A stretch of 64,000 nt of DNA from Agarophyton chilense (Eukaryota > Rhodophyta > Florideophyceae > Gracilariales > Gracilariaceae): positions 62,001 to 126,000 of the forward strand of contig JARGXX010000068.1 in assembly GCA_030374765.1 (NCBI GenBank), written 5' to 3'. The position numbers and the translations under genes were made by a program. This document shows, piece by piece, positions 1 to 33,216 of the stretch. The first letter of the stretch is position 1. Each line of letters opens with the position of its first letter. The notes under the pieces were generated by a model. The model worked only from the letters and a program-made list of their open reading frames with translations. It had not been told where the DNA came from and did not search any database.

Positions 1-3000
1 GTTGTTGTTCAATCGCAACGCCTACAAGATCTGGCCCAGCCGCGCATCCAACAATGCCCGACACCGAACAAGCCACTCCAATTGCGGGTCGCGTTCCACT
101 GCATCCACCATTCCGGCTCGGGTCGTCATAAACCTTCCCACTCCTACATTCCGATCCGTCCCGTTTACCGCCGATCTGGCGTTGATAATCGGGTTCCATC
201 TTACGCGGTTCGATTCAATCCGCAAGTTGGGCTGCTGCTTGAAGTTGTCTTCAAAACATTGCAAGGTTTTCACAGACACATCCCCACCATTCAAACATTT
301 TGGAGCACCCTCATCGGTTGCAAACGATTCCAAAATGCAGAACCCTTGCTGTTGCAGCTCCCTGCGCATTTCACCGAAGAAATCCGACGCCAACTCATCC
401 CGCTCCATGGCAGCCATCCACAGGCGCTCCTCTTCACTTTTTGGATTGCCACTCGTCGGTATCAACTGTCCAAACACCGGTACCTTGGTAGATTCCAGCG
501 CCGCATGCTTCTCCTTCGCGGCGTGCCAAAACACCAGATGGTGGACCAGCTTCAGCTCTTCCACCGTCAGGCATTTAGCTCGGTGCTTGGAAGCCATATG
601 GATGGAGTCCAGCCATAGATGCACGTGTTGAATCACGTTAACATCCTTTGGCAACATGCTCGGCGGCACATTTGCCCAATTACACCATGCCGGCGATGAA
701 GCCCCTTTGTAGGTTTCTGGCAGCTTCATCCATTGCGGCGGTCCATCGGGAGGGTTAGAGTCGTCAAGTGGGCGCTCAATGTCAGCATCTCCCATCGAAC
801 CCCCCCCTCCCACCCCCCCACCCTGCTGCACTCCTTCACCCACTGCATCGTCCGTAACGAATGCCTCATTCCGCTCGCCGTCTAAGAAGTTCTCGGCGCG
901 GATTCCCAGGTTCTACAGCAGTTCAAACAGAGTACTTCTCCGCAACTGCTTCATCCGCTGCAACAACTCCCTTTCCTGTGCCAGTTGGGTTCTCTTCGAC
1001 CGGCGACTGGGTGGAGACAGTCTCATGTCAGGAGCTTTTCGCTTCATACCCTTTGCAGGCCCAGCCGGCACCTCTTCCACCCTTGGAACAGATCTTTTGC
1101 CTTTGCCCTTACGCGTCTTCACCCTTCGACGCGACTCGTTGTAGTTCATGTCATCGTCCAAGTCCAACACAGCCACCTCCGGCGACGGCGCCACAGTCTT
1201 CACCTTCGCCTGTCCCGGAGCGCTCCGACTTTGATGCTGCCCCGAAGGCTCGCTGGAGACCCTGTCCCTACTTCTCTCCTCACTCCCTACTTCAAACAAC
1301 CCCTCCATCCTGTCCGTCACTTCCTTCATTTTGCGCTCCAGCTTCCTTTCCCACTGCCGGTCGCTCCCGGAGTTCTTCATCTTCGACACAATCATCACGA
1401 GGAAGTTCTGCACGGTGGACGTTTCCACTCCGCCAATGCTCATTTGGGTGTCGAGCACGGCGGCAACCGTCACGTCCTTCTTCTCTGCCACTTGTCGGCA
1501 AAAGAAGTACACCTGCAGCGCAAACTTGAAAAAGTAATACCGCATATCCTCGAACCGGCCCCTTCTCCCCCCTTCGAAACCCCCGCGGGTACCCAGTAAA
1601 GCCTTCACACACTCCACGCAAAACAAAAAACCGCCTTCATCGAGTGTGTACAACCGGTCGTCCGACAAATGCGACAGACCCAGCTTCGGCGCCTCTTTCC
1701 ACACCTTCTCAAAGTTGCTCAGCAACTCCGGGCTCCTTACAAGAGCAAGGGCAATGTCGGCGTAGCGCCGAAGATGCGTCGTTTCCAATGTGCCGAGTAG
1801 CATAAACTCTTGCATCGCTACTGCCACCGCATATGGCGTCAGTGACTTGACCTTCACTTTGTCATCCAACACTGACGCCATTATGAACGACACGGTGGTG
1901 TGCACGCTGTCTGCAAACGACATCGCCAACACGTTGCTTGCCATGATGTTCAGCTTACAACCGATGCTCAACCGCTCCTTCCTTGTGAGGTCCTTGCCGT
2001 CCGGTCGCAACCACAGAACGACGTCCAGCACTTGGGTCATGCTTTTCCACCTCTCGGACGTGTTCCTCAGGTCTTGGTACACCACCAAACGATGAAGCCC
2101 ATCCACCAACAGACACTCACAGGTAATTGAATTGCCTTGAAGAACCTCATCCAGTGATCTGCCGCCGAGCATGATCGCAACGCTCACTCGCCCAACCACC
2201 CTAAAACACCTTGCTGCTCCATCATAACCTTCAAATTCTCCCTGGTCTGTCCATTCAATGTCCGCACTTGATGCTCCCCGTAGCGAATTCTGCCGATATC
2301 CACCGTAGCATTCACCTGCCTATAGTGGTTCAGCTCACTCTCGCTATCGGTGGGCATCGCAACAGCCTGTTTCGGAGGCTCCAATGCTTGTGACAATAAA
2401 CGGGTGTTCGACGGGCCCGACCTCATACCCGTGAAAATGACGTCCTCATCCACCTCCACTGCCTTGGCGGCCGAAGTACCAACTTCAATTGTTCCGCCCG
2501 GTGGCGTACGAGGGCGTAGCTTTGCTGCGCGTGAAACGGATGTGCCCCTGCGGGGCGGTGGTTGAGACCTCAGACGAGGTGGCCGAGTGCGTCGAATTGT
2601 ACCGGGAGAAACGGTGGCAACAGGAGCCCCAGCAGCAGTTGCACTCGAACCAGATGCATTCGAGCGCTGCGATGCGCGCCCTTGGCGGCTCTGGGACCTC
2701 TTCCTACGACCTCCCGTTCGGCGCGCTGTTGGTGGACGCGGTTGTACGTCGGTAGTACCCTTCGACGGGGGTGGGGTCTTTGTCCTCCTCTTTCCGACCG
2801 CATGAGCGGATTCATCTGAATCCACCTCAACCACATCCCCTGTTGTTTCCACCGCTTCCATCATACCGAGGTTTCACGAATTTAATGAATTCGGTGACAC
2901 CCCACCCAGTGTTGCAGGCGGCTCTTCCACACCACCAAATCGGTACGGGTACCTAATGTCGTCAAATCTCGGCAGGACCTTAACACTGCGAACTTTCAAC

Positions 3001-3188
3001 AAATCCTCACCTTCAGCCTCCAAGCTCTTTAGGCTAGATCCATGCATATCCCTCGACAATTCTTCCTCCTTTCTACCAGGCATCAACATAGCCGTTACGA
3101 CGCGCTGGCGGTTTCCCCCTTCGCCTTCCGCCAAAAGAAACACGACGGCGGCTGCCTTCATCTTTTGATGTTTTCCACGCGATGGCAT
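1..3188 (-). pseudogene. ParB-like module protein, decayed, cut by window edge
   Basis: A single long minus-strand gene can be followed from an ATG at 3186-3188 to the left edge, so its end is outside the window. The N-terminal third is basic and rich in Ser, Pro and Arg, and looks disordered. At about 2291-2187 the translation holds GEHQVRTL followed by a short helix ending in a Gly-rich turn. At 2106-2086 it holds VDGLHRL. This pair (a QxR element, then a (V/I)DGxHR element) is the signature layout of the ParB/sulfiredoxin-like fold. Known family members bind DNA or nucleotides and are usually bacterial or phage proteins. After about 300 unassigned residues the C-terminal part contains GFCILESF, which loosely recalls the start of phytanoyl-CoA-type dioxygenases, but no HxD motif is visible before the edge, so I do not assign it. 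The frame carries a few in-frame stops and one frame change. It is divergent from the methyltransferase gene at 4983. Confidence 0.55.
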
Positions 3189-3621
3189 TGCGATACACAC
3201 AGTATGAACCGGGGAGATGCGCGCAGAAGAGCGTGACAAGAACAATATGAGACGGGCGAATGAAGGCGGAACACAAAGCCAAATACCGCAGATCCCAAGC
3301 TCAGGCCCGCGGAGAGATGATTCAAGTAGAAGTGCGGACTTGATGCGAAGTTTGATGGCGCCCGCTTGATCTGTTTACACAACAAGACAGGGGCTGCAGT
3401 TTAGGAAAGGGACGGAATGTGAGGGCGGGGGAAACGGGTGTAAACGGGTGAACTATGACTCCGTCCTTTCCGTGAAAAACTGAAAAGGGCTCCTAGTGGT
3501 TGCGTAGTGGCAACCTGAACCCTAACGACGCGTGACATGCCTCACGGTAATCGCCATCTGTTCCAAAGAAAAACGCTGCACAGACACAAAGTTTTACAAT
3601 TTTTTGGGGGGTTGTGTGTGG

Positions 3622-3770
3622 CAATTTGCCTGCGGGCACTTTTGGTCAACTGCGAATTACGGCTCATAATTTGCACCCCGAAAGTGGGAAACAATAATGC
3701 AAATCAACAATCACGGTGCAAACTATGAGCCGTAATCCGAAGTTGAAATTTATTGCCTGCAGGCAATCCA
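3622..3770. repeat. Palindromic 149-bp element, copy 1
   Basis: The element has two arms of about 50 bases in inverted orientation: GCCTGCGGGCACTTTTGGTC at the left and its imperfect complement at the right, meeting around TTACGGCTCATAATTTGCACC and its inverse. About 40 bases lie between the arms. A second copy lies at 4395-4543 in the same orientation. It could be a MITE or an operator or origin-like palindrome. It ends about 435 bp upstream of the start codon of the ParB-like gene. Confidence 0.75.
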
Positions 3771-4394
3771 AATCGCACTTTTTGACTACGTCTGCCCACA
3801 TCCTACAACACGCCCTTGGGCCCCCCAGACCCCATATTTGGCCTTCGCCCACACGCCTTTCCCTACATTTGCGCCACATTACTAAACTTTCACCAACCAC
3901 CTAATATCTCACACAAGCCACTTTAGACCCATCTCAAGCGTGATTGCACAGTGGAAACCCCATTGTTGTTTCAATGCGTCACTTCATCCGCGCACAACAG
4001 TTCTTCTCCACTAATCCATGTCACAACAAATAAACGTTCAACTTTTCGACTTCAACCAAGTACTCTAAAAAACCAAACCTTCTCACCACTCTCCTGTCTA
4101 TGCAGCTGCTACTAGTTCTCGATACCCGACCAAAACATGTTATTCCACAAACATGTCTGCCGGCACCCTTTACGCGAGCTCATTCACCATTCGCATTCGA
4201 CACTATTCGCATGCGGTAATCTAAGGTTGGCCGCCGCTAGAAAAGACATTCATCCCCAAGCGGTTCGACAACCTTCGTCAACGCCGGTATAAAGCCGTAA
4301 GAGGGAGACATAGGCATGAAAATCGGTTATATACAGCAGTTTTGGCCTGGGTACTGCGCTTGGTAGGAGAAAAACGAGTTTGTTTACATTGTGT

Positions 4395-4543
4395 GAAATT
4401 GCCTGCGAGCACTTTTGGTCAACTGCAAATTACGGCTCATAATTTGTACCCCGAAAGTGCGAAAAAATATTGCAAATCAACAATCACGGTGCAAATTATG
4501 AGCCGTCATTCGCAGTTGAAATTTATTGCCTGCAAACAATCCC
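4395..4543. repeat. Palindromic 149-bp element, copy 2
   Basis: This copy is about 90% alike to 3622-3770 by eye and has the same inverted arms (GCCTGCGAGCACTTTTGGTC, then ATTACGGCTCATAATTTG and its inverse GCAAATTATGAGCCG). It lies 440 bp upstream of the methyltransferase-SET start codon, almost the same distance as copy 1 from the opposite gene. Flanking similarity fades within a few tens of bases. Confidence 0.75.
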
Positions 4544-4982
4544 TTTTTTGCTCCCCCAAACTGCATCTCACCTAAACCGACCCCAACCATATTTGAGCTG
4601 TCGGCTATCGCTCTTCTGCTGTCCTCTCCGCTTTACAACACTCCCCTTTCGAAATTTGGTGGTTGTTTCAGCGGTTTTTTTGTTTTGGTTTCTTGCGGCC
4701 GCTGCGGTATCGAGTTACGTTCAAGAACTGCTTTGACGTAAACGCACCCGCTAAAGCCCAAGACCTCACCATTGCGCAAACCCCTAAGCGGCCCCGCTCT
4801 TTGAACCAAACGAACCCACGACCCCTTCAATCAAGACGCCCGTGCACAATTGCCGCCCCCAAATTCCCCTCCAAACGAACAAGTCTCTCTTTGTTCAATC
4901 ACTCCCGCTTCTCCCTCTCTATCTCTGCCCCCCGCCTTCTCCACCGAAAGTTCGAATATCTCTCCAAATTCCGACTTGCAAG

Positions 4983-7900
4983 ATGGTCACCACCGAAGAT
5001 GTCATTGATTTGTTCTTGCCTCTGCGCGACGCGTACTCCCGCACGCGCTCCGACGATCCCAACGCCCGCGCGCTCCAGTACCTGGACTTGGTCTAATTCG
5101 CAGTTCAGAACCGAGGCTCTGTGCCGGCTGCAGAGGACGTTTGCTCCTTGTTCGTGCCATTTGAAAAGCACGTCAAGTACACCAACACCGAGATACAACA
5201 CAACCTCCTCAAAAACAAATACTTCACTCAAGTGTACCTCATGGCCAGATGTGTGGACCTCGACGATGGTTGCGACGACCGGCGTCTCAGGGACTTGTAA
5301 TAGCTCTACCTCCAAATACAAGCTTCAAGCACTACTTCTGAGCAGCATCCGTCTTCTTCTGTTGGTAATGCTACCACCCGTGCAAGTGCTCGTTCTTCCA
5401 AAGCGCCTACAAATCGCCCCCGCCCCAGCCACCAGGTCGATTTGCTCATTCCGAAAACGGCTCTCTTGTCGTCGTTCCTCAAATCGCGCATTCTGCCTCC
5501 GCAGTCGCAAACTTCCGAGGACAGTCGCTCACGCTTCTCCACTACCGTTGAGGCATCTCGTTTTGAAATGGTTTTGCTCCTGTCCATGGTTTACACTCTC
5601 AAACGTGAGAGAGTCAGATCGTGCCAGACCAAGAAACAACGCCTCAATAACGGCGTTGCAACCGCGGCCTCTTTGTTAACTTCGTTGCAAACCTTTAACC
5701 ACGAAACGTGCAACCGAATTTCGTTTGTCGTGCACAAGCTTGTGAGCTCTTGGAATGTGTTCTGCCGCCATCTTGGGTATGACTCACTGGAGCACATGCT
5801 CGCTCCGTTCATCTTGTTCGACAGCAACACCCTAATTTACCACGCTCTTGAACGCTGAGAGGACGGCTACTTCTCGTTATCGCAAACTACCACATTTTCC
5901 AAGGAGGCATAGCCTTCCAAAATCGAATCTCAAGTGGACAGCGTCGCCTGGTTCCACTCCGAAGAAGTTGACCACAATCTACGCGTGCTAGCAACGGAGT
6001 TTTTGAACGACGTTCTTCGCCTGCCGTTCAACGATTTCCTATACGAAATGGATGAAACCGCTCGCTGGCAATCTTTGACGAAGTTCGAGTATAACTAGAC
6101 CGTCGACGTGTACCCTCACCGCTTCACGACGTTCGGTCTGCCACTTTGGACCCCGATTCGAATGGCCATGGTCGGCTCTATTCAGGGCCAACCCCTCAAC
6201 CCAGTCGTGGAGATAGCCAAAAAGGAAGCCGAGTTGGTGGACATCACTATGAATGAATCACAGCAGCAACCTCTGCATGAACCGGGAGCGCCTCTACCGT
6301 CGTCATCGGAACGCACCAAAGCCGCTGGTCCCTCCCCTCCTCCTCAACCCCCAAATCTTCCGTACAACTTCAACGAAACTCCCGTCCTCCCGCCGCACTC
6401 CTTCACCCAAACTACCACTCTGAACTCTCTACAAGAGGCGGAGGACGAAATGGAAAAGCACATTCGCCTCTACGGTGTCGATTTCAAAGAATTCGTACAG
6501 GTTGACATTATCAAACGAACCACCGCCTCATCTCCAGTCGGAGCAGTGCAACTGGTCCTCACCGACCCGCCTTACAACATTCTTTTCTTAGCTGGCCGCC
6601 ACAACAGCAACTATGACGCCATTTCCCAAGACGATGGGAAGCGCACAGCGCAAATTATTGGCGAGCTGTTGTGCCCTGGCGGCCACTTTATTCTGTTTTG
6701 CTCCATTCGCCAGATCAGGCCGTGGTTGCCGTGCTTCAAGAGCGTTTCCGAGTCCCAAACTGCGCTGTTCAAGGTAGACCCTGTGCCGTTTTCGTCCGCG
6801 CCACCTCCCATCCAACTGGGGGCCACCACGGGCTGCGAACGTCGCCGTTGCCATTCAGCGAGTACGCCATTCACGGCATCAAATCGGGGCTCACACACGA
6901 CGAAAACCTGTCTCGCGTAAACCTCGTCACTTACAACTACGTTCCATCTCGAACCCCGGCTTACAAGAACGTGATTGAAAACGTGCCGGGACTAGCCGCT
7001 GGCGAAACCCTGCGTTGGAATCGCCTGCATTCTGCCAACAACATTAACAACGCCGTCACTGAAAAAGTACGCCTGGAGCAGAAGAGTCGTGCTCTCTTCA
7101 AGGAACTCATAAGCCGCTATTCTCAGCCTGGCGACATGGTGGTGGATTTATTTGCCGGAACGGGTTCCACCGCTTTGGCGTGCATGGAGCTCCCAGGTCA
7201 CAGACGCTTTCTGGGGTGCGAGAAAGACGCAGTATGTTACGCTCACGCAAAACACAATGCAGTCGTTCACTTTATCAAAACCATATTACAGAAGAGCACC
7301 GACATTGAGGTACCGCACCTCCTCATCGCCAAGTTCAATCGCCTAGTTCGCTCACTACCGAACAAGGACCTGCGATCGAAATACCTCTGGACCGCTCCTC
7401 CCGGTCTGCCACAGTACCAAATTTTTCCTGCCCCCCTCGCTTCCTTTCTATGCAACTTGTGGAAAGGTCGTGAGTTTGCAGCCGTTTGCCGCACAAAACC
7501 AGTGCATGAATGGCCGCGAGAAAAACAGGGCCTTCTTACTCAGATCGATGCCGCTATGCTACTTTCCATCGAAGGGTATGCCCATGGAGGGTATACCAAA
7601 AAGTCCGACATCCGACACCCCCTGGCGGGAGACGGTGTCTTTGCCACACGCCAGTTTAATGAAGGCGACACCGTGTGCTACTTTTATGGAACCCTCGTCT
7701 ACCACGACCTCTCCAAACGCTCCGCCACACAGTCTTCGTATGCCAACGGTTTGCTCGCCGTCACGGTAGAGGGCTTCGACTCCATTTCCATCGAAATCCG
7801 AGTGACAGGTCCGGACTTTGTCAGACTGCCCACCCCGGGAGACCGCTGAACCCACTCCATTTGGATCACGGCTGCCCCGTTCTGTGTTGTCGGAATCATC

Positions 7901-8175
7901 AATAATGCCCAATACCGCCCAGAAGACCTCGACATTCAGGCCTTACGAGACAAGGTACTCCCAAACCCTTGCACACCAAATGTAGTAGCGCGCCTTTCGT
8001 CTACTTTGAAAAACTCAAAGTCAGGAATCCAAGACTACCACCTCATCACAATAGTGGCCACCCGAACTATTGAGCGAGAAGAAGAAGTTCTAATCGACTA
8101 TGGCAACGACTATGATCAATGGCTCAGGGTTCCAAAACCAAAAACATACACATTTCATGTCAATCTGGTGGATTA
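4983..8175 (+). pseudogene. Beta-class DNA amino-methyltransferase fused to SET domain, decayed
   Basis: The frame starts with MVTTEDVIDLF at 4983 and can be followed to a stop at 8173-8175, about 1,060 codons. The first 500 residues are an unassigned helical region with a low-complexity Pro/Ser linker. The methyltransferase follows: motif IV DPPYN at 6564-6578, then motif I DLFAGTGST at 7145-7171, with C-E-x-D-x-x-C-Y behind it. Motif IV before motif I is the order of beta-class N6-adenine/N4-cytosine DNA methyltransferases (CcrM/RsrI-like). A SET domain comes next: GDGVFATRQF at 7628-7657, YFYGTLVY, an IINN element where SET proteins have the INH core, and a closing ATRTIEREEEVLIDYG around 8065-8110. 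Known SET proteins methylate lysines. About half a dozen stops and one frame change interrupt the gene, so it is dead as it stands. The target base and the role are inference. Confidence 0.75.
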
Positions 8176-9154
8176 GTTGTTTCTTTTCATTCTCAGTAAA
8201 ACACCACTAAAAACTAAACCTTCTCTCCTGAGAACAACCTCGCACAAACTCTTTTCCGTCATTCGTTTTGAAAACAGAAAACCTATAACCTTCTTCTCCG
8301 GCCCCTACTGCCACGTCCCGCACCATCTCACTTCTTTTGCTAAACACCATCATCACGTTACACAGTGCGCAAACTGTAAAACATAGCACCCCTCCTACCC
8401 ACATCACACAGAGCACCATTTTTCAAAAATCCACGATCAATCATGTCGCATATGCATATATGAGCTCAACCGCGGTGCAGCACCGCTTGTGCTCAAACTG
8501 ATACGTGTGTACGATACGCCACCACCGCCACTAGTTAGCCGTTCCGAAAACGTCATGCTTCATAACAAGTTGCCACATTGCCGCACAACATCCGTTGGCG
8601 CACCCGATCGCGCGCCAGCTCGTTCTAAACCTCCGTCCATTTACACAGAAATACGAACCCACCCTGAAAACTTCTGCCCTCCACCAACCCGACTTGACCA
8701 CCGCGCAGCCCCATCTCTTCTCTGCGCTGCCCTTTTTTCCCGTCCTGCTCCCCCCCTACACGCAAACCACACCCCTTACACAAAAACACTCTCCTCAATG
8801 GGGCGGAAGCCAGTGAGCTTCATTGTGACACAATCCTCCCCACAACCACACAATCATACACTGGGAATGAATGACCTGCAAGACCACATAGTATCGTGTT
8901 GCTTCCCTTTTACAGTATGCCGTTTGCTCGAGGCAGCCGCACGCGCCCTCCCCCCCCCCTCCACAAAGACCAAACCGCCTTTCTCCAATTACCCTTGCCC
9001 CACCTATTTTCTACTTATACTGCTATACCGGCAGTGAACCCGTCTATTTTTCTGTTGCTCCCGAACTCTTTTGTGGTTTTTTGTGCGTGTGTTTCTTTGG
9101 GTCTTCAATAACAATCCTCGCAAGCGTCTTCTTCTCTATCTTACTCGTTGAGTT
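8176..9154. other. Intergenic, pyrimidine-rich, no gene seen
   Basis: I see no supported gene in these 980 bases. The plus strand is very G-poor. A short perfect hairpin, CGGTGCAGCACCG, lies near 8474 next to a run of overlapping ATGCATAT-type palindromes. The last 150 bases before 9155 are CT-rich and probably hold the helicase leader. Confidence 0.5.
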
Positions 9155-12100
9155 ATGTCGCAAAACAGCTTATCCTCCGCCAGCGAACATGGCTTGCACG
9201 TGTTCATCCCCTCTTCGGTGCACAGCTCACCGAGGGCTGCGGTGAACATCTCACCGTCCACTCCCCCTAATCCTTTGCTCCCCCCACCCCCTCCGCCTCT
9301 GACGCGTGACGCCCATGCTGAACCCCACTCCGACCTACCCGATTCCGACGCGAATGTAGCCAAAGATTCTTCCTCTTTTATCATGGCTCTCGGTACCATT
9401 GTGAATATGGGTATTCATTCTATTGGTTTCTTTCCGTTGTGTGTCAACTGCCAGTGTGGGCTGCGGTCTGCCCGCGCAATCCAACATCACCTGCGCAAAA
9501 AGCACTTTATCCCTTTGGAAATTGCACGTCCCATTTCAATGGCTATCCTGCACGAGGTGCACACCTTGCGCAACAACTCTACCGTTGCCCCCGCGTGGCA
9601 AAAGTATCGCCCCCAACACAATGCCCAATTTCTGTCCGAGCCCTCTACGTTCCTCACGCCCCTGACACACATTGCCATTCAAAATTGCTATCAGTGCCCA
9701 CTATGCAAATTCTGTTACCTCGACCCCGTTCGTCTGCAAGCGCATCTGATCGAATGCCACAACATGTCGCCTGCGGTTTCCCAGCTGCACCTTGACCGTA
9801 CCGTCTCGTTGGGCCGTATTGCCTTGTAGACAGTGTACGGCGGCGTTCGTCGCCGTTTATTCCCCGTTACCAATGCTCAACCCGTAGGCTTCTTGTCCAA
9901 AACTTTCCAGATTCCGCAGGCGCCTGCAGCACGGCCTGAGACACCCCTGGCGCAGCCTGTTTCTCTCCCACCAGCCCACCGTTCAGTGGCAACGACTGCC
10001 AATTGCATCGAGCCCCTGCTTCAACACATTAATCACTTTTTACAAAAGTTCAACAACGGCACTCCTCGTTCGCAATCAGACCCTTTGCTTCGTCACCACT
10101 CGGAGAAAATTCTTTCATCACCTTTTCCAAGTATGACATCGTTCTTCAATCGCTTCATTTTCATATGGATGTGGCGGCTCAACTATCCAGAAGTGGAACA
10201 ACGCCCACATCCGCTGAAAGAACCATCACCCACCACATCTTCGACTACCTCTCTCAGGTGAACATTTTGGTTAGTAAGACCTCCCTGGCTTTCTTGAACC
10301 TCCTCAACAAGCGCACTGACACAGCTTTTAAAACTGTCTCCACTGAAACCCTCAAGCGTTACGCTTCAAACATTTCCCGTTTGCTTGTGTTTACTCACAG
10401 GACAAGGGCAAACCTCCCTCATCTCGTACCCGACTCAGAACTCATGTAACGCTACACTACTTTCGTGTTGGATGCCGTTCGCATGTCGTCCTCCGGTGAG
10501 ATCCCCGCCCCGTTTCCTTCATCCCAATATGGCCCAGCGGTCCATAGCGCGCTCAAGCCCTTCATGCTTCAATCTTTAGCGCCATACCAGTCATTACATC
10601 TCCTCTGCGTTCACAACTTCATTGCTTGCGCAAGCGTGATGAGCACCGATCCCAACCCGCCTATCGCTGCCCCCTTGCCGTCTGACCGCACACCTGAGCC
10701 TTACGACACGTTCATTTCTCACGACCCCAGCAATACCTCCTTTCGTTTTGCCGCCGCCTCGGATGTGACGCACCTCCTCGCCGCTCTTCAATATGACATC
10801 TGTGCCTGCGCCATACACCAACTGAACATGCTATCTAATTATTCTCCCCTGTTGCAAACCACCCCCCCTGCTTCCGAACGCACACTTCACGTTCAAGTAC
10901 GCATGTGTACCATCGAAGCTGCAATCGACGCTGATTCCAACAGCGCACTTTCGTTTGTCAGAAAGACCCTCACGCTTGCAATGTCCATATCCTCTCGCGA
11001 GGAGATGTTCGCTTCTTTCCAAAACGTGATGTTCACGCGTCCTGCGGCATAGTGCGTGAAATTCACCTCGCCCTCTCAGAAGTCAGCTCTTTGGTTTTTA
11101 CTCTACACAAAGAAATACAACATACTCTTCACAACGACCTGCTTTTTGGCCACGCTCTGCCAACCGGTTTCACAAACGCGCTACACTCACTTCAGTACGA
11201 CTCCTTCAACAAAAGCCCAGGCTTTTCTTTCCTTACCAACCTCAACAACCGCCCGTTTATCGAACAAAACATGGCTTTCGTTTTCACTTGTCTCACATCT
11301 TCCATGCCCCACAACTCCAACACCGACCACACTCCGTTTCTTCCGCAACGCAAGCCCAACAGTACCTTTCCCCGCCCACAACTGCCCACAACCGACATTT
11401 TGGGCACCGATATGTTCACGCATGCGTTGTCGAGATGGCTCTTGTGAGCGCAGAAAATCCAGGAGCGCCTGTTGGTTGCGCTACCCCGTTCGTCGGGCTC
11501 TCCTGCGCACGGCAAAGAGATTGAGACATACCGTATCCATAACGACCAACACTTTCAACGTTGTCTCGTGCTCATCGACAAATCACCTGTCCTCATTTGC
11601 CATTTAATGAAAACGCGAGACAGCAAACGGGCCGCCACTCCGATTGCTCGCTTTCCCGATGCCAAAACATCCCGTCTTCTGCTCATGTACTTGACTCTCA
11701 TACGTCCGTTTGAAGCATATATCGTCCGCCGGCTGCACGGGGAAACCCGTTTCCTGCATTGGAAAATGCTGTTCGCCAACTGCGGAATTCCGTATGCCGC
11801 AAACACCATCCGCTCGATTATCAGCTCTCACTTTGGCCAACGCAATTTCGCGATATCCTTCAATGACTATAGAAACTTCACCGTGGGAATGAGCAACACA
11901 GTTTCCAATGTCACCGCATCTTCTGTAGCCGATCACATCTTGGAAGAGCTATTGTCTACCGCCCATGGCCAGGAGGGCCACTCTGCGCACAACGCCGCTT
12001 TTCTTTACGCTCATACATCATATGACGTATCCGGTTTGCAGAACTCTCAGCTTTCCAAATATCGCGAGTGGTCCAGCAAATGGCACCAGTATCTCGGTCT

Positions 12101-14586
12101 TCTTCTTCATGCTCCCCTCACCCAACAACAACAAAAACAACAACACAGAAAACGCCTGGTTACTGAAACAGTTCTACCTACACCTGAACCAAAGTGCTCC
12201 ATCCATACATCGCAATTAACCCTGTCCCCTCCCACTGACCGCTTTGTGATCCCCCATTCTCAAATCAACCTAAACCTGGCGGCCTCTCATCCTTTCAATC
12301 CACATCCGCCTGCTTTTATGGCAGCCGCCATACCGCGCGATGGAGCTTCTCTCTTACAACAACCGCTTGTGACCTACGAACACAATACATCAGAAATGCT
12401 CCGAGCACTAAGACAGGCACTCTCCAACGACTCTGCTTTGTTCAAATCCCACCAACTTTTTTTGAACACAGCGGCCATGTACAACAGGCTTTCCAACATG
12501 CTACTAATTCAGCCGACTGGATCTGGAAAAACACTATCTCTTCTGCTCTCCGTCTTAATGGAAAAGGGCAAATACTCCACCGTTCTCATCACCCCTCTCA
12601 CAGCTTTGCTCAGTGAATACGAACTGCGCGCTCAGCTCTTCAGCCTTCGTGCTTCTCGTACACCCACCCCTCCCGGATCGCACTCCTTTGCCGACATTTA
12701 CATCTTTTCCGCCGAAAGACTTTCTCTTCCTTCTTTCACAGAGTTCACCACGCTACTGATGGCCGCCGACCGCCTCGCCCGCATTGCCATCGATGAATGT
12801 CACTTGTTTCTTTTATGGCAACACTTTCGCCCGTGCTTGGCCAACCCCCATAACTGCTTCGGCCACATTCCCACAAAGATCCGTCGCTTGCTTTTAAGCG
12901 CGACAGAGCCGCCGCGCGACCGCTTTCTTCTTCTGTCTCAGCTGCACATCCCGAACGATCATGTATACGCTTCTTCGACTGCAGGAAACAATATTTCTTT
13001 TGTCTTGTATCACCTAAGCTCAGCCCCCAACACTTCACGTGCCACACGCTTTTGCGCCGCTCATGGCCACTTTCAGGATGTGTTCGGATACTTTCTTTAG
13101 CTTGGCGTCTCAATTTTGCAAGAGCATGTGGCTCGATTGCTTCACTCGTCGGCTGACACAACACTAGCTCGCGTTCTTATATTCTCGTTAACGCGCCCGG
13201 CTGCCGAAGCTGTCCATGAAGCTCTCGACGCTTCGCGTTCTTCTTTCGGTGCCCTTAAACAATTCACTACTGTCACAGTTCTCCTGTACTATTCTGGTCT
13301 CTTCGATGTTGGTAAACGACGGGCGCACAGCCTTTGGAACTCTCCGCCTTCTTCCAGCGCCCCCACAACCAACCACATTCTATTTATGGTTTGCACCTCT
13401 TCTTTTGGTACGGGCATCGGATTTCCCAACGTTCGCCTGGTTTTCAGCTTTGGTGGAGTAGCGAGCCTTTGCAACCTCGCGCAACAGGCCGGCAGGGCCG
13501 GCCTCGATGGAAACCCATCCACTTGCGTCACCATTTATTTCCAGCCCTACTTCAAACTGGCAGCGGAAACCCTTTCTTCGTCCTCATCCAACACAAATGC
13601 GTTTGAGGAGGCCAATCGCATTTACAACCAAGCACTTTCCACGCAGCGTTTGTTGGAAGCGCAGCAATGGGTCAAATGCAAATCTGTTTGTCGAAGGAAC
13701 GCACTCTATTTTCACATGGACGGAAAAGAACCAGGCATCTGTCTCTTCTCCCCTTCGGTTCTTAATTGCGATATTTGCAATAGCATCGCAGCTGTCTCCC
13801 CCTCTCCCACCCCGGAACGAAGCTCCGTTTCCGCCACCCTTTCTGCCTCTCAGCACACCGAATCCATTTCATCGTCACCCAGCGCTTCCCCACAAACACC
13901 CACGCCGTCAAAAAACGCTCCCAATCAATCAAACAGAACATCCTGAAACAACAAAACCACCAACAACAACAGCGGCCCAACACAAAGCCCCAAACCCCAC
14001 GCCAGTCGTCCGCCACGACCTCCCACCTCCACTCCATCGCAGTTGCTGACAACCATGCATCCATCCGCTGCGATCCAATCCCCCACTGTCGCTTCTTCTC
14101 AATCTCAGTCGCACTCCGCCACCTTCTTTTACACCTTGGAACGAAAAACACCGCAACAAATCGTGTCACACTTCGAGGAGCTCTCCAGCCGACTTGCCCT
14201 TCTCTGTGTGCCGTGCTGGCTGCACGGAAAAACGCAAGTGCATTTGACGGACAATCATGCATGCCCCCATTCCCGTCAACGATGCTTCAGATGCTTTTCG
14301 CCGCACCATATATCGCGCAACTGCAGGTTCGATAAATCACCTCAAGAAACCTGCTACCGATGCGATCTCGGATTCTGCAAGGGACTCAAAACTCATTCTC
14401 AACGGCATTCTTTTGGAACAAGACACTGCATCTTCATTTCGCTCTATCAACTGGCACTTGTGGCTAACGTGCTCCGAAACTCGCTCTGATATTGCACTCC
14501 ACCGCTTTGAAGGCCGCATGCAATCCAAGTTCAACTCCATTTCCCATTTCCTCCCAAGATTCCTCACCCCCCCCCCCTTGAAATAG
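9155..14586 (+). pseudogene. Zinc-finger RecQ-type helicase, telomere-linked-like, decayed
   Basis: The frame begins MSQNSLSSASEHG at 9155 and can be followed to about 14586, roughly 1,800 codons. Two zinc fingers lie near the N-terminus: CVNCQCGLRSARAIQHHLRK and CPLCKFCYLDPVRLQAHLIE. The middle 800 residues are unassigned. The helicase core has motif I QPTGSGKT (about 12510), motif II DECH (12792-12803) followed by a W-x-x-FRP element as in RecQ, and motif VI QQAGRAGLDG (about 13482-13511). A Cys/His-rich tail follows at 14200-14380 (CVPCWLHGK, CFRCFSPHH, CYRCDLGF). Two C2H2 fingers, a RecQ core and a Cys-rich tail together match, from memory, the large fungal telomere-linked and DUF3505-type RecQ proteins. 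Several stops and about three frame changes show it is decayed. Behind it lies a telomere-like satellite. Confidence 0.7.
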
Positions 14587-15100
14587 ACGACATTTTTCAT
14601 AATTGGTTAACACACAACAACCACTTTGCCGTACCCAACATTCTACTCCTTGAAGCTTGGTGGAACTCAACCACAACACTCATTTAAGCACGAATTGAGA
14701 TTCGCACCCGGTACATTAAACACCCATTCTTCTTTCTCTCTTTTGCCTTCAACTCTCTTCCTTGCCACAAAAAAACACATTTCCTCCTCTTTATACTGAA
14801 ATATAACCCCAAACACCCCATATCCGACCGTTACATTACACCCATTCCAACAACAAGCGTTATTCATACGAATTTATCTCCAGCTCAACCTCAGCCCCGA
14901 AAAATCATAACGCCGCCTCTAAAACAGAGTGTAACGATACAACCCCCACTCTACATCAGTCACACCCATAAAGCCCAGTACACTTATCGAATGCAGGTCG
15001 CTCAACACAGAACTTTATCCAACCACCGCAGATATCGAGTACACCCTCAAACAATCTGTACACCACGCATCCATAATATACTGGGACTTGACGTCTCGAC
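14587..15100. other. G-poor spacer, no gene seen
   Basis: This 500-base stretch continues the C-rich, G-poor composition of the island. It has no open frame I can support and no clear repeats. It leads into the telomere-like satellite. Confidence 0.5.
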
Positions 15101-15420
15101 TGCAAACCCTTAAAACCCCTAAAAACCACTAGAACTACATAATAAAAAAGCTTCCGCTAAAACTCCTAAAGCCCTCCACCCCCTCAACGATGTGTTTCTC
15201 TCCGTAAATACGAAATCGCATAAAGGTAAAGCTTCCCCTAAAACCCCTAAAACCCTAAACCCCTAAACCTCTAAAACCTCTAAAACCCCTAAAACCTCTA
15301 AGCAATGTTTTCCTCTCCGTAAATACAAAATCCCATAAATGTAAAGCTTCCCCTAAAACCACTAAACCCCTAAACCTCTGAAACCTGTAAAAGCCCCTAG
15401 CCAATGGTTTCCTCTACGAA
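15100..15420. repeat. Satellite with degenerate telomere-like tracts
   Basis: Three diverged units begin with AAAGCTTCC near 15149, 15227 and 15344. Each continues into runs of CCCCTAAA, CCCTAAA and CCTCTAAAA and then a non-telomeric tail (TTTCCTCTCCGTAAATAC). The C-rich CCCTAAA-type tract resembles plant and algal telomere repeats (TTTAGGG, TTTTAGGG) but is degenerate. The orientation, C-rich on the plus strand, is that of a left chromosome end. An AT/C-rich subtelomeric satellite with no telomere history is the alternative. Confidence 0.6.
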
Positions 15421-16018
15421 AACGTAAACTTCCGTAGGCCCTGACTGATAGCTACTTTATGGCGATGGCACTGCTGGACAAACCTTAAGGTCATAATACC
15501 CTACCTGGCATCGTTAAGCATACTTCATCCCTACATCACTAAACGCACTGCACGCTTCTTCTTTAGCTGAGAGTGTGGCGCCAGCACTCCCCTGACCTAC
15601 TACTCACCACATTCAAACTACATTAAACTTGGCAGTACCAACGAATATCGACCCTCAGTGTTGCCGTATATGAAAACCATCCTAAAACCAAGCGCAAACG
15701 CACCATTTTTAGGCTCTAAGACGACCCCAAAAACGCGCATACAAAACGCCTGACAATGTGCCAACTGCCTCCACGAAATCGCCACAGAACCAAGCGCAAA
15801 TGCATACCTTAACCCATTCTTTTGATAAAATTTTCGCAGATTATCCAGCTTACAACACATCTCGGCTGTGCAGCGGAGATGTGGCTGTAACCAAGCGCCT
15901 TTGAGTGCCACACTCGACGCACGCCTCCACGTTGTGTAGCAAAAATGTTACAATAAAGCATGTGCAAACGCAGGATTTGGCGGACAGCCCAGCGCGTGAA
16001 ATTTTTATGATTTTTTCA
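15421..16018. other. Spacer with recurring ACCAAGCGC motif
   Basis: No gene is supported. The motif AACCAAGCGC recurs near 15689, 15791 and 15892, and the same word is the arm of the hairpins in the repeats that follow. A minus-strand open frame at 15618-15911 has no recognisable protein character. Confidence 0.4.
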
Positions 16019-16430
16019 AAAGCAAAAATTGCGAAAATGGGTGCTGCGCGCCAACACCTGGCAAGTCGCGCGCTACGTTACCCGAACGAAGCGCCTGAGC
16101 GCAATAAGCCATGATTTTTTGAGCGTGCCAATGTGGCATACTCGCTCTCGAGCACAACGTTTAGCATCCAGGGGGTCAAAATTGCACATACGTCAAATGC
16201 AGCGCGTGGCGCATGGTATATGTAATTACCAAGCTCTGCTGACAACCGCGTTTGACCAAGCGCCAGCCCACACTTACAACCTGTAATATATTTATAGGCG
16301 GTCAAAATCGCACATACGTCGAATGCAGCCCGTGGCGCTTGGTGTATGTAATTACCAAGCGCTACTGACAACCGCGTTTTACCAAGCGCCAGCCCATACT
16401 TACAACCTGTAATATATGTAGGTTACATAA
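16019..16430. repeat. Hairpin-bearing repeat A, with tandem part
   Basis: A unit with the perfect hairpin GCGCTTGGT...ACCAAGCGC and the tail CTTACAACCTGTAATATAT occurs at 16175-16300 and again at 16301-16426 (period 126). The preceding 16019-16174 segment recurs in part at 17660-17736, and the 16090-16290 segment recurs at 18424-18640, just before the Penelope-like frames. I infer that these are leader or pseudo-LTR sequences of that retroelement family. Confidence 0.65.
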
Positions 16431-17659: not shown

Positions 17660-17736
17660 AGGACAAATTGCGAAAATGGGTGCTGCGCACCAACATCTGG
17701 CAATTCGCGCGCTACGTTACACGAACGAAGCGCCTG
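17660..17736. repeat. Partial copy of repeat A
   Basis: About 77 bases match 16019-16096 closely, including GCGAAAATGGGTGCTGCGC and CGAACGAAGCGCCTGA. The match stops sharply, so this is a truncated copy. Confidence 0.7.
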
Positions 17737-17777
17737 AATGTTGGCTGTTGACCCTGTGCTGTCACTGAAAACCAAAA

Positions 17778-18209
17778 GTGCAGGGCAGCATAGGCTTTTT
17801 TGGACGGTGCCTCTGTAAAAGCGCATATTCGTGTCAGTCGGATCTCAACGTGAACTCGGGCTGTGATTGGCTACTGCAAATGTGCACATGCAATGTGGTG
17901 TGTACAAGTGGTATGGAACTATTGGGTGTGTCTGTAAGACACGTCTGTACGTGGTCTACTTGTACTAATGTGCACGCTGTTCAGGATGTCCAGCTGGTGT
18001 ACTATGTACACATCTCACAAGGTGTAACGAATGTACTTGGAGAAGAGACGTGTCATGTGTATTACAGGAGACCTGGTGTACTGTACTGGAACGTGAGTGT
18101 GTATGGAGGCGGATTGCAAATAGTGTATGTTGGAATATTGAATTTGTGCACACGTCAGTATAAGTATAGGCTGTGCACTGTTGTATTACCTTGTTGTGCG
18201 CCGCAATGA
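17778..18209. other. GTAC/GTGTAC-rich stretch
   Basis: The stretch is rich in GTGTAC, TGTAC and GTGCAC words, with more than ten GTAC or GTGCAC sites in about 350 bases. The plus-strand open frame over it (143 codons) gives a Cys/Val-rich protein like nothing I know. I think the frame is a product of the biased composition. Confidence 0.35.
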
Positions 18210-18324
18210 ACTTTGACTAGGGTTAATGTCGTGCTTGAATATGATTGGTGGTATTAAGAGTCCCTGATTTGTAGTCTAGGGTTTACTTTGGGTTGGAGTA
18301 TAGATGGCTGACATTTTGGAGTAG

Positions 18325-18332
18325 TATATAAG
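18325..18332 (+). promoter_or_regulatory. Possible TATA box upstream of Penelope-like element
   Basis: TATATAAG lies about 330 bases before the first retroelement frame and just before a pyrimidine-rich stretch (18385-18420). The spacing would suit transcription that starts at the edge of the repeat A copy at 18424. There is no other support. Confidence 0.3.
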
Positions 18333-18423
18333 TGAAAGTTTGAGCGCCTCCAAGTAAATCCAAGCTAGAGCTGGCGAACTTCCTTTTCATCCCCTCAACC
18401 TTTTCTTCAGCCTTTCCTTATCC

Positions 18424-18640
18424 AACACTGAACGCAATTAGCCACGATTTTTTTAGCGTGCCAATGTGTCATACGCGCTCTCCAGCACAACGTTTTCCCT
18501 CCAGGGGGTCAAAATCACACATACGTCGAAAGCAGCGCGTGGCGCTTGGTGTATGAAATTACCAAGCACTACTGACGACCGCTTTTTACCAAGCGCCAGC
18601 CCACACTTACAACCTGTAATATATATATAAAACACCATCC
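18424..18640 (+). repeat. Repeat A copy, leader of Penelope-like element
   Basis: This copy matches 16090-16290, including GTGCCAATGTG, CAGGGGGTCAAAAT, the ACCAAGC hairpin and the ACCTGTAATATAT end. It sits directly before the retroelement open frames, which suggests it is the 5' region of the element. Confidence 0.65.
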
Positions 18641-19179: not shown

Positions 19180-19525
19180 ACTGCCTCAGGGGGGATCAAA
19201 CGCGGGGGGGAGAACGAAGAAAACCAAAGGCCAACGGAAGTATACAAAAAAGGCAAGCACGGCGCCGCCGAACGGGGCGCCAAGCAAAATTAACCCGTTT
19301 CAGGCCTAGAAAACCCCGATCCCTCGAGCCTAAGTAACTGAAGTACAACCCCCCTATCGAAATTAATGATAAAGACGTACCTTTCGAAGTCAAGAAAGTA
19401 CTGTCTGTTGGGGGAGGATTTCTGCTCAGGACGCCACTCAAAATCTGTCTTCGAGACACAGTAGATCAACTACTAAATGCTTTAGGATCTGGATTCAGGA
19501 GGATCAAAACCTCGGTCTCACGTTA

Positions 19526-20440
19526 ATGAGCCGAAAGCTCTATGACGATCTGGTTAGTATAGAAATCCAAGAGGGTGTATTCTCTGAGGTCAGCTCCTTC
19601 CCCCTTGAAGGGCTCTTCAATAACCTCGATGGTATCTTACAAAACAGCCGGAAACCCAGACACTATCAGAAGGATCATATGCGGTATTCTCTTAATGCCA
19701 CAGATCCAGCCTCCTTCTACGTACTGCCGAAAATCCACAAGCCAACAGTCAAATCTAGACCTATAACTGCCTCCCACTGTTACATTACGGGGGCTTTCTT
19801 TAGAGAATTGAGTATCTTCCTCAACAAAGAACTTCTCAAGATCCCAGCGATATCAGTGAATAAATGGCAGACTGTTCGGATATTGGAACAAATGCATCAA
19901 ACTTACGATTGTGTGTTCTTGACATACGACTTAAAAAGATGCTACCCCAACATGGACTTGGAGGATGCGATTCAAGTGTTAACCCGAGAACTTCCGCACA
20001 TCTATACGGCTAACGACGCATTCTGGTCACAAGTACTACGATTCATCATGTACAACAACTTTGTTACAGATGGAAACGGGGTTCATAGACAGATGGAGGG
20101 AACAGCAACAGGGACAGTCGTTGCCCCTGCCCTTGCCAATCTCTATCTGTTGTATAAGTTCCAACGGATTTTCCTGGACTCAGTCAGCAGTGTCATCATC
20201 AACCGCCGGTATATTGACGACGGCCTAGTGGTTCTGCGATCCAAAAAGGCTGCTGAGAAGCTAATGAAAAGGCTGAAAAACAGTTCAAACCTATGCCTGA
20301 CATGGTATGTCAGCGACAGGAACGCTATCTACCTGGATCTAACGATAAAAAAAGGACGCCGGTGTTTCTTTGAAAGCATTGTGAATATAAAAGAATACAC
20401 CAAGCCTATATCCAAGTTCTTGTACCTCCATGGGGGCTGA
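19526..20440 (+). mobile_element. Penelope-like reverse transcriptase, 3' truncated
   Basis: The 304-codon frame has the Penelope-like RT signature in order: FYVLPKIHKPTVKSRPI (about residue 65), LTYDLKRCYPNMD (motif with the first Asp), GTATGTVVAPALANLYLL (motif 4), RRYIDDGLVVL (catalytic box), and AIYLDLTIKK near the thumb. The LPKIHK...RPI block separates Penelope-like RTs from LINE and LTR RTs. The frame ends at FLYLHGG, where family members continue through the thumb and often into a GIY-YIG endonuclease. Here the sequence passes straight into the 140-bp hairpin array. Whether the family is endonuclease-minus or this copy is merely truncated cannot be told from one copy. Confidence 0.8.
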
Positions 20441-25739: not shown

Positions 25740-26441
25740 CCCCGGAGGAAAAAGAGCTCCTCCCTATAACTATTGAAATAATCCTACAGGCGCAGGTCGA
25801 AGACGAATACTGCAAGGAAACAGCCCAATTAGTAGGAACCCCAGGATGCCTGTTCGACTATGACTGATTTGGACTACTATGTCGCCGCTCGCCGCTGGAT
25901 GCCGCACTCCAACGGGTAATACCAACTCCGCTAAGGGCGCGATTACGATACCTCGCCCATTTCACCCGCTTGGCTGGCCATCCTGGAGACCGACGAATGT
26001 ACCAGACCCTAAGATGTCGCCACGGCCTTCTTTTCCCACTGGGTATATCCATATAGCATGCCACTCTACCTCCTTACGGATAACGGCAGCCAGTTTGTAT
26101 CCAAATTCTTTTCACACCTCTGTGCTACCTTAGGTATCAAACATGTGACCACCACGGAGTACCACCCGCAAACCAATGGCGAAGCCGAACGCTTCAACTG
26201 TACCCTTCTGGACCGATTGGCGCACTACGTTTCGGATCGCCAATTGGACTGGGACGAATACGTTGAGCTACTGGCTTGTGCCTACAACACGCAGGTGCAC
26301 GCTTCCACAGGGACAACTCCCATCGACTTAACGCTAACGAGAGCGCCGCTGCCGATAGCAGTTGACCTTCAGGAGTCTTTCATTTCCCAGGACATAACAG
26401 AAGGGATGACTCCTACCCAGGCGAAGCGCTACTCGCGCTGA
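25740..26441 (+). pseudogene. Integrase core of Ty3 element 1 (fossil)
   Basis: The stretch encodes LTDNGSQF, then TTEYHPQTNGEAERFNCTL, the second and third parts of a Ty3-type integrase core. The zinc-binding head before it is poorly preserved. It is broken. Confidence 0.8.
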
Positions 26442-31605: not shown

Positions 31606-33216
31606 CTAACGTTGGCCGTCTGCAGGCATCGGCTCCTTGCGACGGCGCCAATATCTGATACGGAAGTTTGGGGGTATTGCGGCTGGGGGTTTGAGAGTGT
31701 CCCCTTCTGTCCCCCAGCCGTACCACCTTACTGAGTACTTCAAACCATTGTAGGTTCGCGTGTGGCCTACCAGACGGTAAACGGGAACTTCCTCTGAGGT
31801 TTGGTCCTGATCTTTTGGGGGAACGCTACCTCGAGGGTTCATATGTTCCCAGTTGGGAGCTTCGTGTGTGGGAGCCGGGTCAGGAGCTCTCGCTGTTACC
31901 GTTTGAGGTTCAATTTCCGTCCCTGTTAGAGGGTTGTAATCCGGATCATCACTTTTAAGGTCATCGTTCACCTCAATTGGGGTGGGGTCCTCGGAGGGTC
32001 GAGTGCGCAGAGCTATCGCTCTGGGCTCTCGGGATGAGGTGCCTGCCTCCATGCGATGTTGAACTGTTTCAGGTGCAACCGTAATACGGTCAATTGATAT
32101 CGTATTCGGTATTCCATCTTGTTCAACCGTAACGGTGTGGTCTGATGCGTTCAATACCTTATAAGATCCCACTGATTTTGGTAGAAGATTCAAATTGATA
32201 TCTCTATCAATAGCTTCACTGTCCGCTTCATCACCCGGTCGTGGTCTTTTACCTGAATGTGGGTTGTCTATGTAGACATATTGTCCCAAAGATACAGAGA
32301 CCACTTTGGCTACCCTACGGTCGTGGGCGGCCTTGTACCGCTTCCGGGCTGCAGTGAGGCGGCTCTCTTCATGTTTGAGAGCCCTCCTCAACCTCACAAG
32401 GGTATTTCGCTTGACCTGGGCAGGGGTCAGTGCGCCAGCTGCAGGGCTGGTGGTATGATCTCCCTGCACTACAATACCTGGTGGTTGTCGCGAAAGAACC
32501 AAATCAAAGGGAGTGGTCTGCATTGACCGGTGTACCTGAAGGATAAAGGAGTAGGTGAGCGGTTGCACCAGCTCATCCCACTCAGTTTGGTGCTTTTTTG
32601 TATATTGTCGTAGCCTTGATACCAAAGTGTGGTTAATGCGCTCGACCTCTCCGTTCGTCTGCGGGTGGAAGGCAGTAGTGTAATAGTGCTTGATACCCGA
32701 GAGGTTACAGACTGCTTCGAAGAACTTCGATGCCAAGTTTGAACCGTTATCGGTAAGTAGGTATGGTGGTGCACCATACGGGTAGACCTAATTGTTGAGG
32801 AACGCGATCCCCAGCGTAATTGACTTCGTCTTCTTTAAAGGTATCGCTCTCGTGAGCTTCGAGAACCTGTCCGTGATCACTAGAATGTGCTCATACCCAG
32901 TCTTGGTCTTGGGAAGTGGTCCTAGAAAATCTATCGCAACAAACTCCAGCGGACCTGCTGTTGGAAACAGCTTGAGGTATTTTCGATGCTTTCGAATACC
33001 ACCGCGGGTATGAACACAGGATTCGCATTGCCATACAAAGGTATAGACATCACGGGCCATATGAGGCCAGTAGAACTGTTGCCTCAAGGTGTAGTACACC
33101 CTGGTGGCACCGGGGTGTCCCGATAGTCGCGGGTAGTGCGCGAGATACAAGATTCTCGGGCGAAGCGCATTCGGAACCACCTTTTGAAGGCTACCATCCA
33201 AGGATGACCATCTCAC
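31606..33216 (-). pseudogene. Integrase and chromodomain of Ty3 element 2 (fossil)
   Basis: The 33216-32788 stretch holds the integrase head and first core part (HPRLSGHPGATRVYYTLRQQ, FVAIDFLGPLPKT). The 32736-31606 stretch holds FHPQTNGEVERINHTL and a C-terminal chromodomain (LKYSVRWYGWGTEGDTLKPP). Broken, but close to full length. Confidence 0.85.

Follow-up and report, generated by a model that had tools for sequence, protein, structure and literature searches.

A broken methyltransferase-SET and RecQ helicase island in Agarophyton chilense is a decayed representative of a chromosome-end element with many copies

Background

The presence of three large broken genes at the start of a 64,000-nucleotide stretch of red algal DNA raises the question as to whether they are the remains of one mobile element or ordinary host genes that decayed in place. 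The stretch, hereafter the window, is C68:62001-126000 of Agarophyton chilense, C68 being contig JARGXX010000068.1 of assembly GCA_030374765.1. An earlier note, made from its letters, had placed a ParB-like gene, a DNA methyltransferase-SET gene and a zinc-finger RecQ helicase gene at positions 1..14586 and proposed that they are what is left of a DNA-modifying mobile or subtelomeric element. We searched the genome (79.76 Mb in 135 contigs) for further copies and find that the island belongs to a chromosome-end element present in many copies, here called F1, and is a decayed example of it. The genes of F1 occur together elsewhere, which upholds that proposal. It is probable, though well short of certain, that F1 is an end-attaching element copied from its 3' end, of which the window retains a decayed copy that has become internal. 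Throughout, contig ends stand in for chromosome ends; they are a proxy only, because telomere repeats were seen at the tip of few of them (five of 20 contig-end stretches, then none of 20 further contig starts).

An intact element and its decayed copy

An intact copy of the island lies on contig C96, where gene 1 is encoded on the minus strand (C96:2820-6767, 1316 amino acids) and is followed on the plus strand by the methyltransferase-SET gene (C96:8278-11700, 1141 amino acids) and the RecQ gene (C96:12574-18213, 1880 amino acids), each in a single open frame. Within C96:1-20000 no other frame of at least 250 amino acids was found except frames overlapping the three genes. The window copy, in plus orientation, occupies positions 1..16294 and matches C96:3534-19820 with 92.3% identity over 16.3 kb; a further 775 bp on its left side, C68:61226-62000, precede the window, and its left edge corresponds to C96:2759. 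The island is therefore real and has the layout described for it, one gene on the minus strand and then two on the plus strand, but the extent first given to it was too short, as the copy starts 775 bp before the window and runs on to a 3' end at 16294.

In the window gene 1 (1..3188, minus strand) carries one frameshifting indel and four in-frame stops, the beta-class DNA amino-methyltransferase-SET gene (4983..8176, plus strand) one indel and eight stops and the OrsD/C2H2 zinc-finger RecQ helicase gene (9155..14682, plus strand) five indels and six stops, a total of seven and 18 respectively in genes that are 92-95% identical at the nucleotide level to those of C96. For the window the start codons of the first two genes were set by eye and the ends of the RecQ gene are approximate. 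The ratios of nonsynonymous to synonymous substitution against C96 are 0.48 for gene 1, 0.39 for the methyltransferase-SET gene and 0.59 for RecQ and, together with the lesions, may be read as the signature of an old, formerly constrained copy. Profile searches on the open pieces of the window, which had been proposed as a check, recovered N6_N4_Mtase (E 1.1e-11), SET (E 1e-4; 7628-8104, interrupted by one TGA), OrsD (E 5.7e-6), DEAD (E 5.1e-11) and Helicase_C (E 2.7e-5), bearing out the methyltransferase and SET assignments, and nothing for gene 1. Between the divergent genes sequence comparison shows a palindromic repeat (3623..4543) of a 773-bp unit. These repeats are partly self-inverted (inverted matches 74-79%), in line with the shared palindromes noted earlier for the divergent layout; they are found between the divergent genes and also on the far side of gene 1, and the spacing of gene 1 and the methyltransferase gene differs in many copies by rough multiples of the repeat length.

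Genome searches with the SET profile, the window helicase piece and the gene 1 piece gave 86, 90 and 96 matches. Setting aside 14 of the SET matches (presumed host SET genes, and three unclear matches), manual sorting left 33 chromosome-end and 39 interior copies. These form the two main groups: contig-end copies, mostly 84-95% identical to the window and with long open frames, and interior relatives, in which gene 1 is mostly 33-43% identical and is paired with a methyltransferase-SET gene (frames up to 1043 amino acids) with no helicase match nearby. At chromosome ends RecQ lies 3789-3820 bp downstream of methyltransferase-SET in 31 of 33 copies, and at exactly 3813 bp in 22 (spacings compiled by hand), and a divergent gene 1 is present within 14 kb in 17 of 33. 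The genes thus do not occur only apart, and they occur with open frames. That the island consists of ordinary host genes, such as a methyltransferase and a helicase, grouped by chance and decayed in place would agree with all three window copies being broken, yet 31 of 33 copies repeat this order and spacing, and elsewhere the genes have open frames and an outer end in common. These facts already refute it and leave it hardly credible. The anatomy of F1 is well supported.

Location and orientation at chromosome ends

In order to place F1 in the genome we counted helicase copies and 3' ends separately. For the former 52 rows were used, 38 of the 90 matches (shorter fragments and more distant rows, including those of the second family F2 described below) having been dropped. 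A contig end is no more than 65 kb away from 49 of the 52; of these 49, 43 read inward and the remaining six are on contigs shorter than 60 kb. On one of these short contigs, C76, which starts with telomere repeats, three helicase copies read away from the telomere. Of the other three copies, two, one of them that of the window, are 73 kb away from an end and read inward, and the third, on C4, is 659 kb inside and has the opposite direction. The F1 3' end gave 142 matches, positions being tallied for 100 listed, and leaving out the 16 on contigs that are shorter than 100 kb or of unknown length we obtained 84. Of these, 83 are no further than 100 kb from an end, and the same number point inward; the sole exception, C4:1108904, is both interior and reversed.

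Among 20 contig-end stretches, each 500 bases long, five (C95, C76, C68, C1 and C93) open with the telomere repeat CCCCTAAA(A). The array of C95 extends to 2127, and a few bases on, from 2132, come 773-bp repeats leading into gene 1. C68 has two arrays (1-1077 and 3546-4275) with 2.5 kb of other sequence between them, and an F1 copy cut within its helicase gene is joined to the second array at C68:4278. The segment between the two C68 arrays recurs near the C76 telomere and, in decayed form, in the window at 19246..20433 (plus strand; 68-74% identical to C68:1078-3545 and 72% to C76:95-500), a relic of sequence that adjoins telomere arrays on both contigs.

A fixed 3' end and its junctions

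The right edges of the copies on C96, C95, C10 and C68 and in the window all stop at ...CACTTACAACCTGTAATATATATAG or a close variant. With up to two mismatches this end is found in 142 places in the genome and its reversed control in none, and the common outer end that had been suggested as something to look for is thereby identified. The 5' sides are cut at differing points and, in the cases read, adjoin either telomere repeats or the 3' end of another copy, the window copy excepted. Some 3' ends are a few hundred bases apart and form head-to-tail arrays of 5'-truncated units. The window contains three such ends, at 16294, 16420 and 18627. The first (16273..16297, plus strand, from edge and junction comparison) is joined at the site equivalent to C96:19699 to a strongly truncated unit (16298..16420, plus strand), and a second truncated unit on the same strand (17665..18627) is interrupted, consisting of 17665-17737 and 18428-18627; both share the 3' end, and both were recognised by sequence comparison, as was a degenerate telomere-like C-rich tract in the 3' region of the decayed copy (15105..15399, plus strand).

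To define the join we read 69 junctions, 20 of which have no unbroken counterpart in the sequences compared, while the other 49 represent 32 distinct sites. The table of junctions (31 sites and one on C95) and its tally were compiled by hand. At 29 of the 32 sites the joined bases, GG or, for copies ending in GA, GA, pre-exist in the unbroken target (binomial p 5e-32 at 1/16). The base before the junction is A, as in the element, at 23 of the 29 fitting sites, and agreement further out (3, 8 and 12 of 29) has no consistent pattern. Junction comparison shows that ...TATATAT(A) comes from the element and (A)GR from the target. Among the 100 listed F1 ends a final C or T is not seen, possibly because C or T in a primer could both pair with an RNA ending ...GG (G-C, G-T).

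F1 3' ends frequently land in a subtelomeric satellite of 840 bp (e.g. C95:23996-34096), one 21-base stretch of which has 119 matches. Two further "ends", F3 and F4, considered as additional elements, were rejected as edges of this satellite. Within the window, 26216-26368 (80%) and 32399-32545 (92%) match DNA adjoining F1 3' ends on C88 and C92; interior parts of the window are therefore duplicated near other contig ends, where F1 attached. Just left of the window F1 copy, C68:56181-59147 has retroelement-like frames, with reverse transcriptase-like and protease-like stretches recognised by eye.

These junctions bear on two further explanations of F1. The first treats F1 as an ordinary duplicated block of subtelomeres, comparable to yeast Y' or the fungal telomere-linked helicase (TLH) regions and spread only by recombination or break-induced replication between chromosome ends. 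Identical junctions do recur at several ends (L109, L115 and L128; L100 and L126), 322-bp spacings recur on C4, C68 and C90, RecQ tandems have a fixed period (5216 bp on C10, 5902 bp on C76) and there are near-identical copies, all as such a block would have it. It leaves unexplained, however, why one fixed 3' end is found at 32 different targets with the AGR rule holding at 29 of them, and why F2 has a fixed end of its own in the same orientation, and we regard it as unlikely, though deserving of serious consideration. The second is one-ended rolling-circle DNA transposition of the Helitron or IS91 kind, which would account for the fixed 3' end, variable 5' side, short target motif and encoded helicase. 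It gives no reason for the inward orientation of 83 of the 84 listed ends or for 5' joins to telomere arrays, no Rep/HUH domain was found in the proteins and pieces scanned, and the Helitron end, which we take to be CTRR inserted between A and T, is not present in F1. We consider this explanation distinctly improbable.

The second helicase family, F2, is also found near contig ends. Its helicases are 32-41% identical to those of F1 and read inward in 14 of 14 cases on contigs of known length (15 rows). Two F2 copies share ...CCAACCTGATCCTAGTAGTAGG and then diverge; this end has 18 matches, one of which is joined to truncated F1 DNA at GG, and all 16 that are on contigs whose length is known point inward. 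F2 is described here from its helicase and 3' end.

Predicted gene products

The closest relatives of the F1 methyltransferase in the PDB are DpnA and CcrM. Among 102 relatives found, many have a SET match, and the three with a species name come from Chondrus crispus and Pyropia yezoensis. In an interior copy N6_N4_Mtase (PF01555) matches residues 505-742 (E 3.3e-18) with the motif order DPPY then FAGT of the beta class, and D511-P512-P513 and D708...G712-T713 are invariant across 14 sequences; the DPPY motif presumably reflects N6-adenine methylation as the predicted activity. SET scores 23.4 bits (cut-off 22.4) in an intact interior copy and 35.3 bits in the window's own stretch.

The intact helicase contains OrsD (PF12013), DEAD (PF00270) and Helicase_C (PF00271) and is assigned to the RecQ family by RecQ models. 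The resemblance to fungal telomere-linked helicases suggested in the earlier note holds, as its homologs include fungal OrsD-RecQ proteins, one of which is tlh3 of Metarhizium robertsii (25% identity). The ParB-like assignment of gene 1, on the other hand, found no credible match in Pfam, NCBIfam, PHROGs or PDB sequence searches. Nor did gene 1 give a profile match to anything else, including the 2-oxoglutarate (2OG)-Fe(II) and TET-JBP double-stranded beta-helix families, or a match in the protein search or the viral contig scan. A 429-residue stretch is 94-95% identical in most near-intact copies, a DG[HL]HR stretch (DGHHR or DGLHR) is present and HTD...HAG...R is conserved between two copies aligned. 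These two motifs are the sole hints at what gene 1 does. To us the former recalls ParB/Srx-type folds and the latter 2OG dioxygenases, neither being confirmed by profiles. Predicted structures of gene 1 have a mean predicted local distance difference test (pLDDT) score of 32.4 (single sequence, to residue 1136) or 31.8 (three sequences), too low for a fold to be read.

The RecQ protein probably opens or processes the chromosome end.

A related gene pair within an interior Plavaka transposon

A unit of about 18.7 kb at C86:960196-978925 shares both ends with a copy on C10 in different surroundings and has 32-bp inverted repeats in C86. It contains a divergent gene-1/methyltransferase-SET pair with palindromic repeats between, plus-strand frames of 396 and 537 amino acids and a transposase frame of 1148 amino acids, identified as Plavaka (PF18759, 72.2 bits against a cut-off of 26.3, E 5.7e-20). 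In the two copies inspected for a target site, CT stands on both sides in C86 and no duplication is recognisable in C10. The flanks of seven sampled interior copies are 97-100% alike beyond both genes, which suggests recent activity of the Plavaka element. Across the interior methyltransferase-SET copies a Plavaka match lies within 9 kb downstream in 34 of 39 and a divergent gene-1 relative within 9 kb in 34 of 39.

One divergent cassette therefore exists in two kinds of element, as the pair is found both in F1 and in a Plavaka transposon, and this raises the possibility that the island is a degraded insertion of the latter. Besides the related pair, a Plavaka match at the right end of C95, 10.2 kb downstream of a chromosome-end copy, could be taken to support this, although it lies beyond the F1 3' end. 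Gene 1 of the two is 42% identical, however, their ends differ, and a Plavaka match within 9 kb downstream is found in 0 of 33 chromosome-end copies versus 34 of 39 interior ones. A Plavaka insertion is refuted for the window copy and is given very little weight overall, while common descent of the gene pair remains.

How F1 may spread

We infer that F1 attaches to chromosome ends by an RNA-templated process with the polymerase supplied in trans. New copies would be added to exposed or eroded ends by copying from the 3' end of the element, the chromosomal 3' terminus (complement ...YC) pairing with the last bases of F1 RNA and priming synthesis. Terminal loss would then trim the 5' side, telomerase would re-cap the end and recombination between ends would copy whole arrays. 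Any polymerase must act in trans, because F1 has no further frame of at least 250 amino acids besides its three genes and overlaps. It would come from elsewhere, as for HeT-A, an element with 5' truncation, a fixed 3' end toward the centromere and no polymerase of its own, and might be that of telomerase or of another retroelement. No reverse transcriptase domain was found in the proteins and pieces scanned. A genome-wide search for reverse transcriptases was swamped by other retroelements, 150 of 3134 candidates being scored. The genome has one telomerase match (Telomerase_RBD at C73:520546-520944, in an open frame of 1158 amino acids). The long interspersed element (LINE)-type endonuclease (PF14529) has 13 matches, of which 10 are no more than 80 kb away from a contig end (the length of C130 is not known). 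Sites of these include C7:13972-76895, C130:8257, C131:2148 and C75:1756873 and 1763338, on the plus strand at contig starts and on the minus strand at the right end of C75, and they are a possible source of reverse transcriptase in trans.

Several observations weigh against the reading of F1 as an end-attaching element copied from its 3' end. Telomere repeats are absent at 15 of the 20 contig-end stretches and at all 20 further contig starts, and some contigs begin within F1; part of the end bias may thus come from breaks in the assembly at this repeat. The outer edge of the window copy (C68:61226) abuts a retroelement-like region, with neither telomere repeats nor the 3' end of another unit, and a later insertion or rearrangement there is possible. 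Junctions L133 and L145 are off the rule, the site on C68 (C96:19084) is ambiguous, and of the fitting sites two are in a short repeat and have their upstream bases in common. The element's T at target position -2 is matched in only 3 of 29 sites, which does not favour annealing further, and a simple preference for AGR in cutting or priming would account equally well for what is seen. One of the 18 F2 ends finishes in T. The recurrence of many junctions at several ends makes it very likely that arrays are also copied by recombination. No RNA, complementary DNA or new insertion was observed. The methyltransferase-SET protein and the product of gene 1 probably mark or unmark the DNA and chromatin of the element.

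If the RNA template is real, F1 RNA is expected to end in ...UAUAUAUAG(R) and F2 RNA in ...UAGUAGUAG(R). In this alga the telomere-linked RecQ genes are parts of units that have a fixed end, a single orientation and a rule for their junctions, the hallmarks of a mobile element that lengthens chromosome ends. This offers a route for the spread of telomere-linked helicases and a possible link between telomerase, transposition and the fusion of a bacterial-type DNA methyltransferase with a histone-type methyltransferase, and the related pair carried by a DNA transposon suggests a portable epigenetic cassette. Tentatively, and at somewhat less than even chance, F1 and F2 may represent a new class of helicase-encoding, polymerase-less end elements, primed at AGR, perhaps by telomerase, in a host that keeps its telomere repeats, F1 having captured from Plavaka, or donated to it, a methyltransferase-SET cassette that controls end chromatin.

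Comparison with known systems

Titles and abstract openings of the open-licence papers listed by our searches gave no description of this element or of the methyltransferase-SET cassette. In the red alga Cyanidioschyzon eight subtelomeric element types of up to 20 kb are described, the word "helicase" being absent from the main text of that report (PMC1955436), and nothing on subtelomeric RecQ was found in the passages of PMC12636532 consulted. Capture of a bacterial-type N4-cytosine methyltransferase is described in rotifers (PMC8885841).

Fungal Plavaka elements carry TET/JBP genes, and SET genes occur in other transposons (PMC12730594). The interior element resembles fungal Plavaka in its transposase, inverted repeats and added chromatin- or DNA-modifying genes and differs in its cargo, which is methyltransferase-SET with a gene-1 partner. 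The intact copy of F1, unlike Plavaka, has no transposase.

TLH regions in Fusarium occur in full and truncated form beside retrotransposons, and telomere-linked helicase genes are termed host genes (PMC12857005). F1 has in common with them an end-located helicase of OrsD, DEAD and Helicase_C architecture, shared with Metarhizium tlh3 and other fungal proteins. Identity to tlh3 in the helicase core is about 25%, however, and F1 adds the methyltransferase-SET and third genes. Its fixed 3' end and junction rule are both features not reported for TLH regions in the passages of PMC12857005 consulted.

Among elements that live at chromosome ends, HeT-A/TART, Giardia Gil elements and Terminons show single orientation, head-to-tail arrays and 5' truncation in differing combinations (PMC5537684). 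GilT and GilM are non-long-terminal-repeat retrotransposons in single-orientation head-to-tail arrays between subtelomere and telomere repeats, with 5' truncations and long 3' regions (PMC5537684), and F1 is like them in array layout and unlike them in that no reverse transcriptase was found in it. The Athena elements or Terminons of bdelloid rotifers are large multi-gene end units, often 5' truncated, that carry extra genes and always a reverse transcriptase, and most Athena copies carry telomere repeats at their 3' end (PMC5537684). F1 is similar to Terminons in size, extra genes and truncation; no reverse transcriptase, including one of Athena type, was found in F1, and the F1 3' end joins chromosomal DNA.

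HeT-A, TART and TAHRE of Drosophila form one-orientation head-to-tail arrays at chromosome ends (PMC5537684). With contig ends taken as proxy F1 is like them in its single-orientation head-to-tail arrays, and like HeT-A in its 5' truncation, its fixed 3' end and in that no polymerase of its own was found. It differs from the HeT-A type in that its host has telomere repeats as well as a telomerase gene, in coding for a RecQ helicase and a methyltransferase-SET protein, in a 3' end that is not oligo(A) and in joining its target at AGR.

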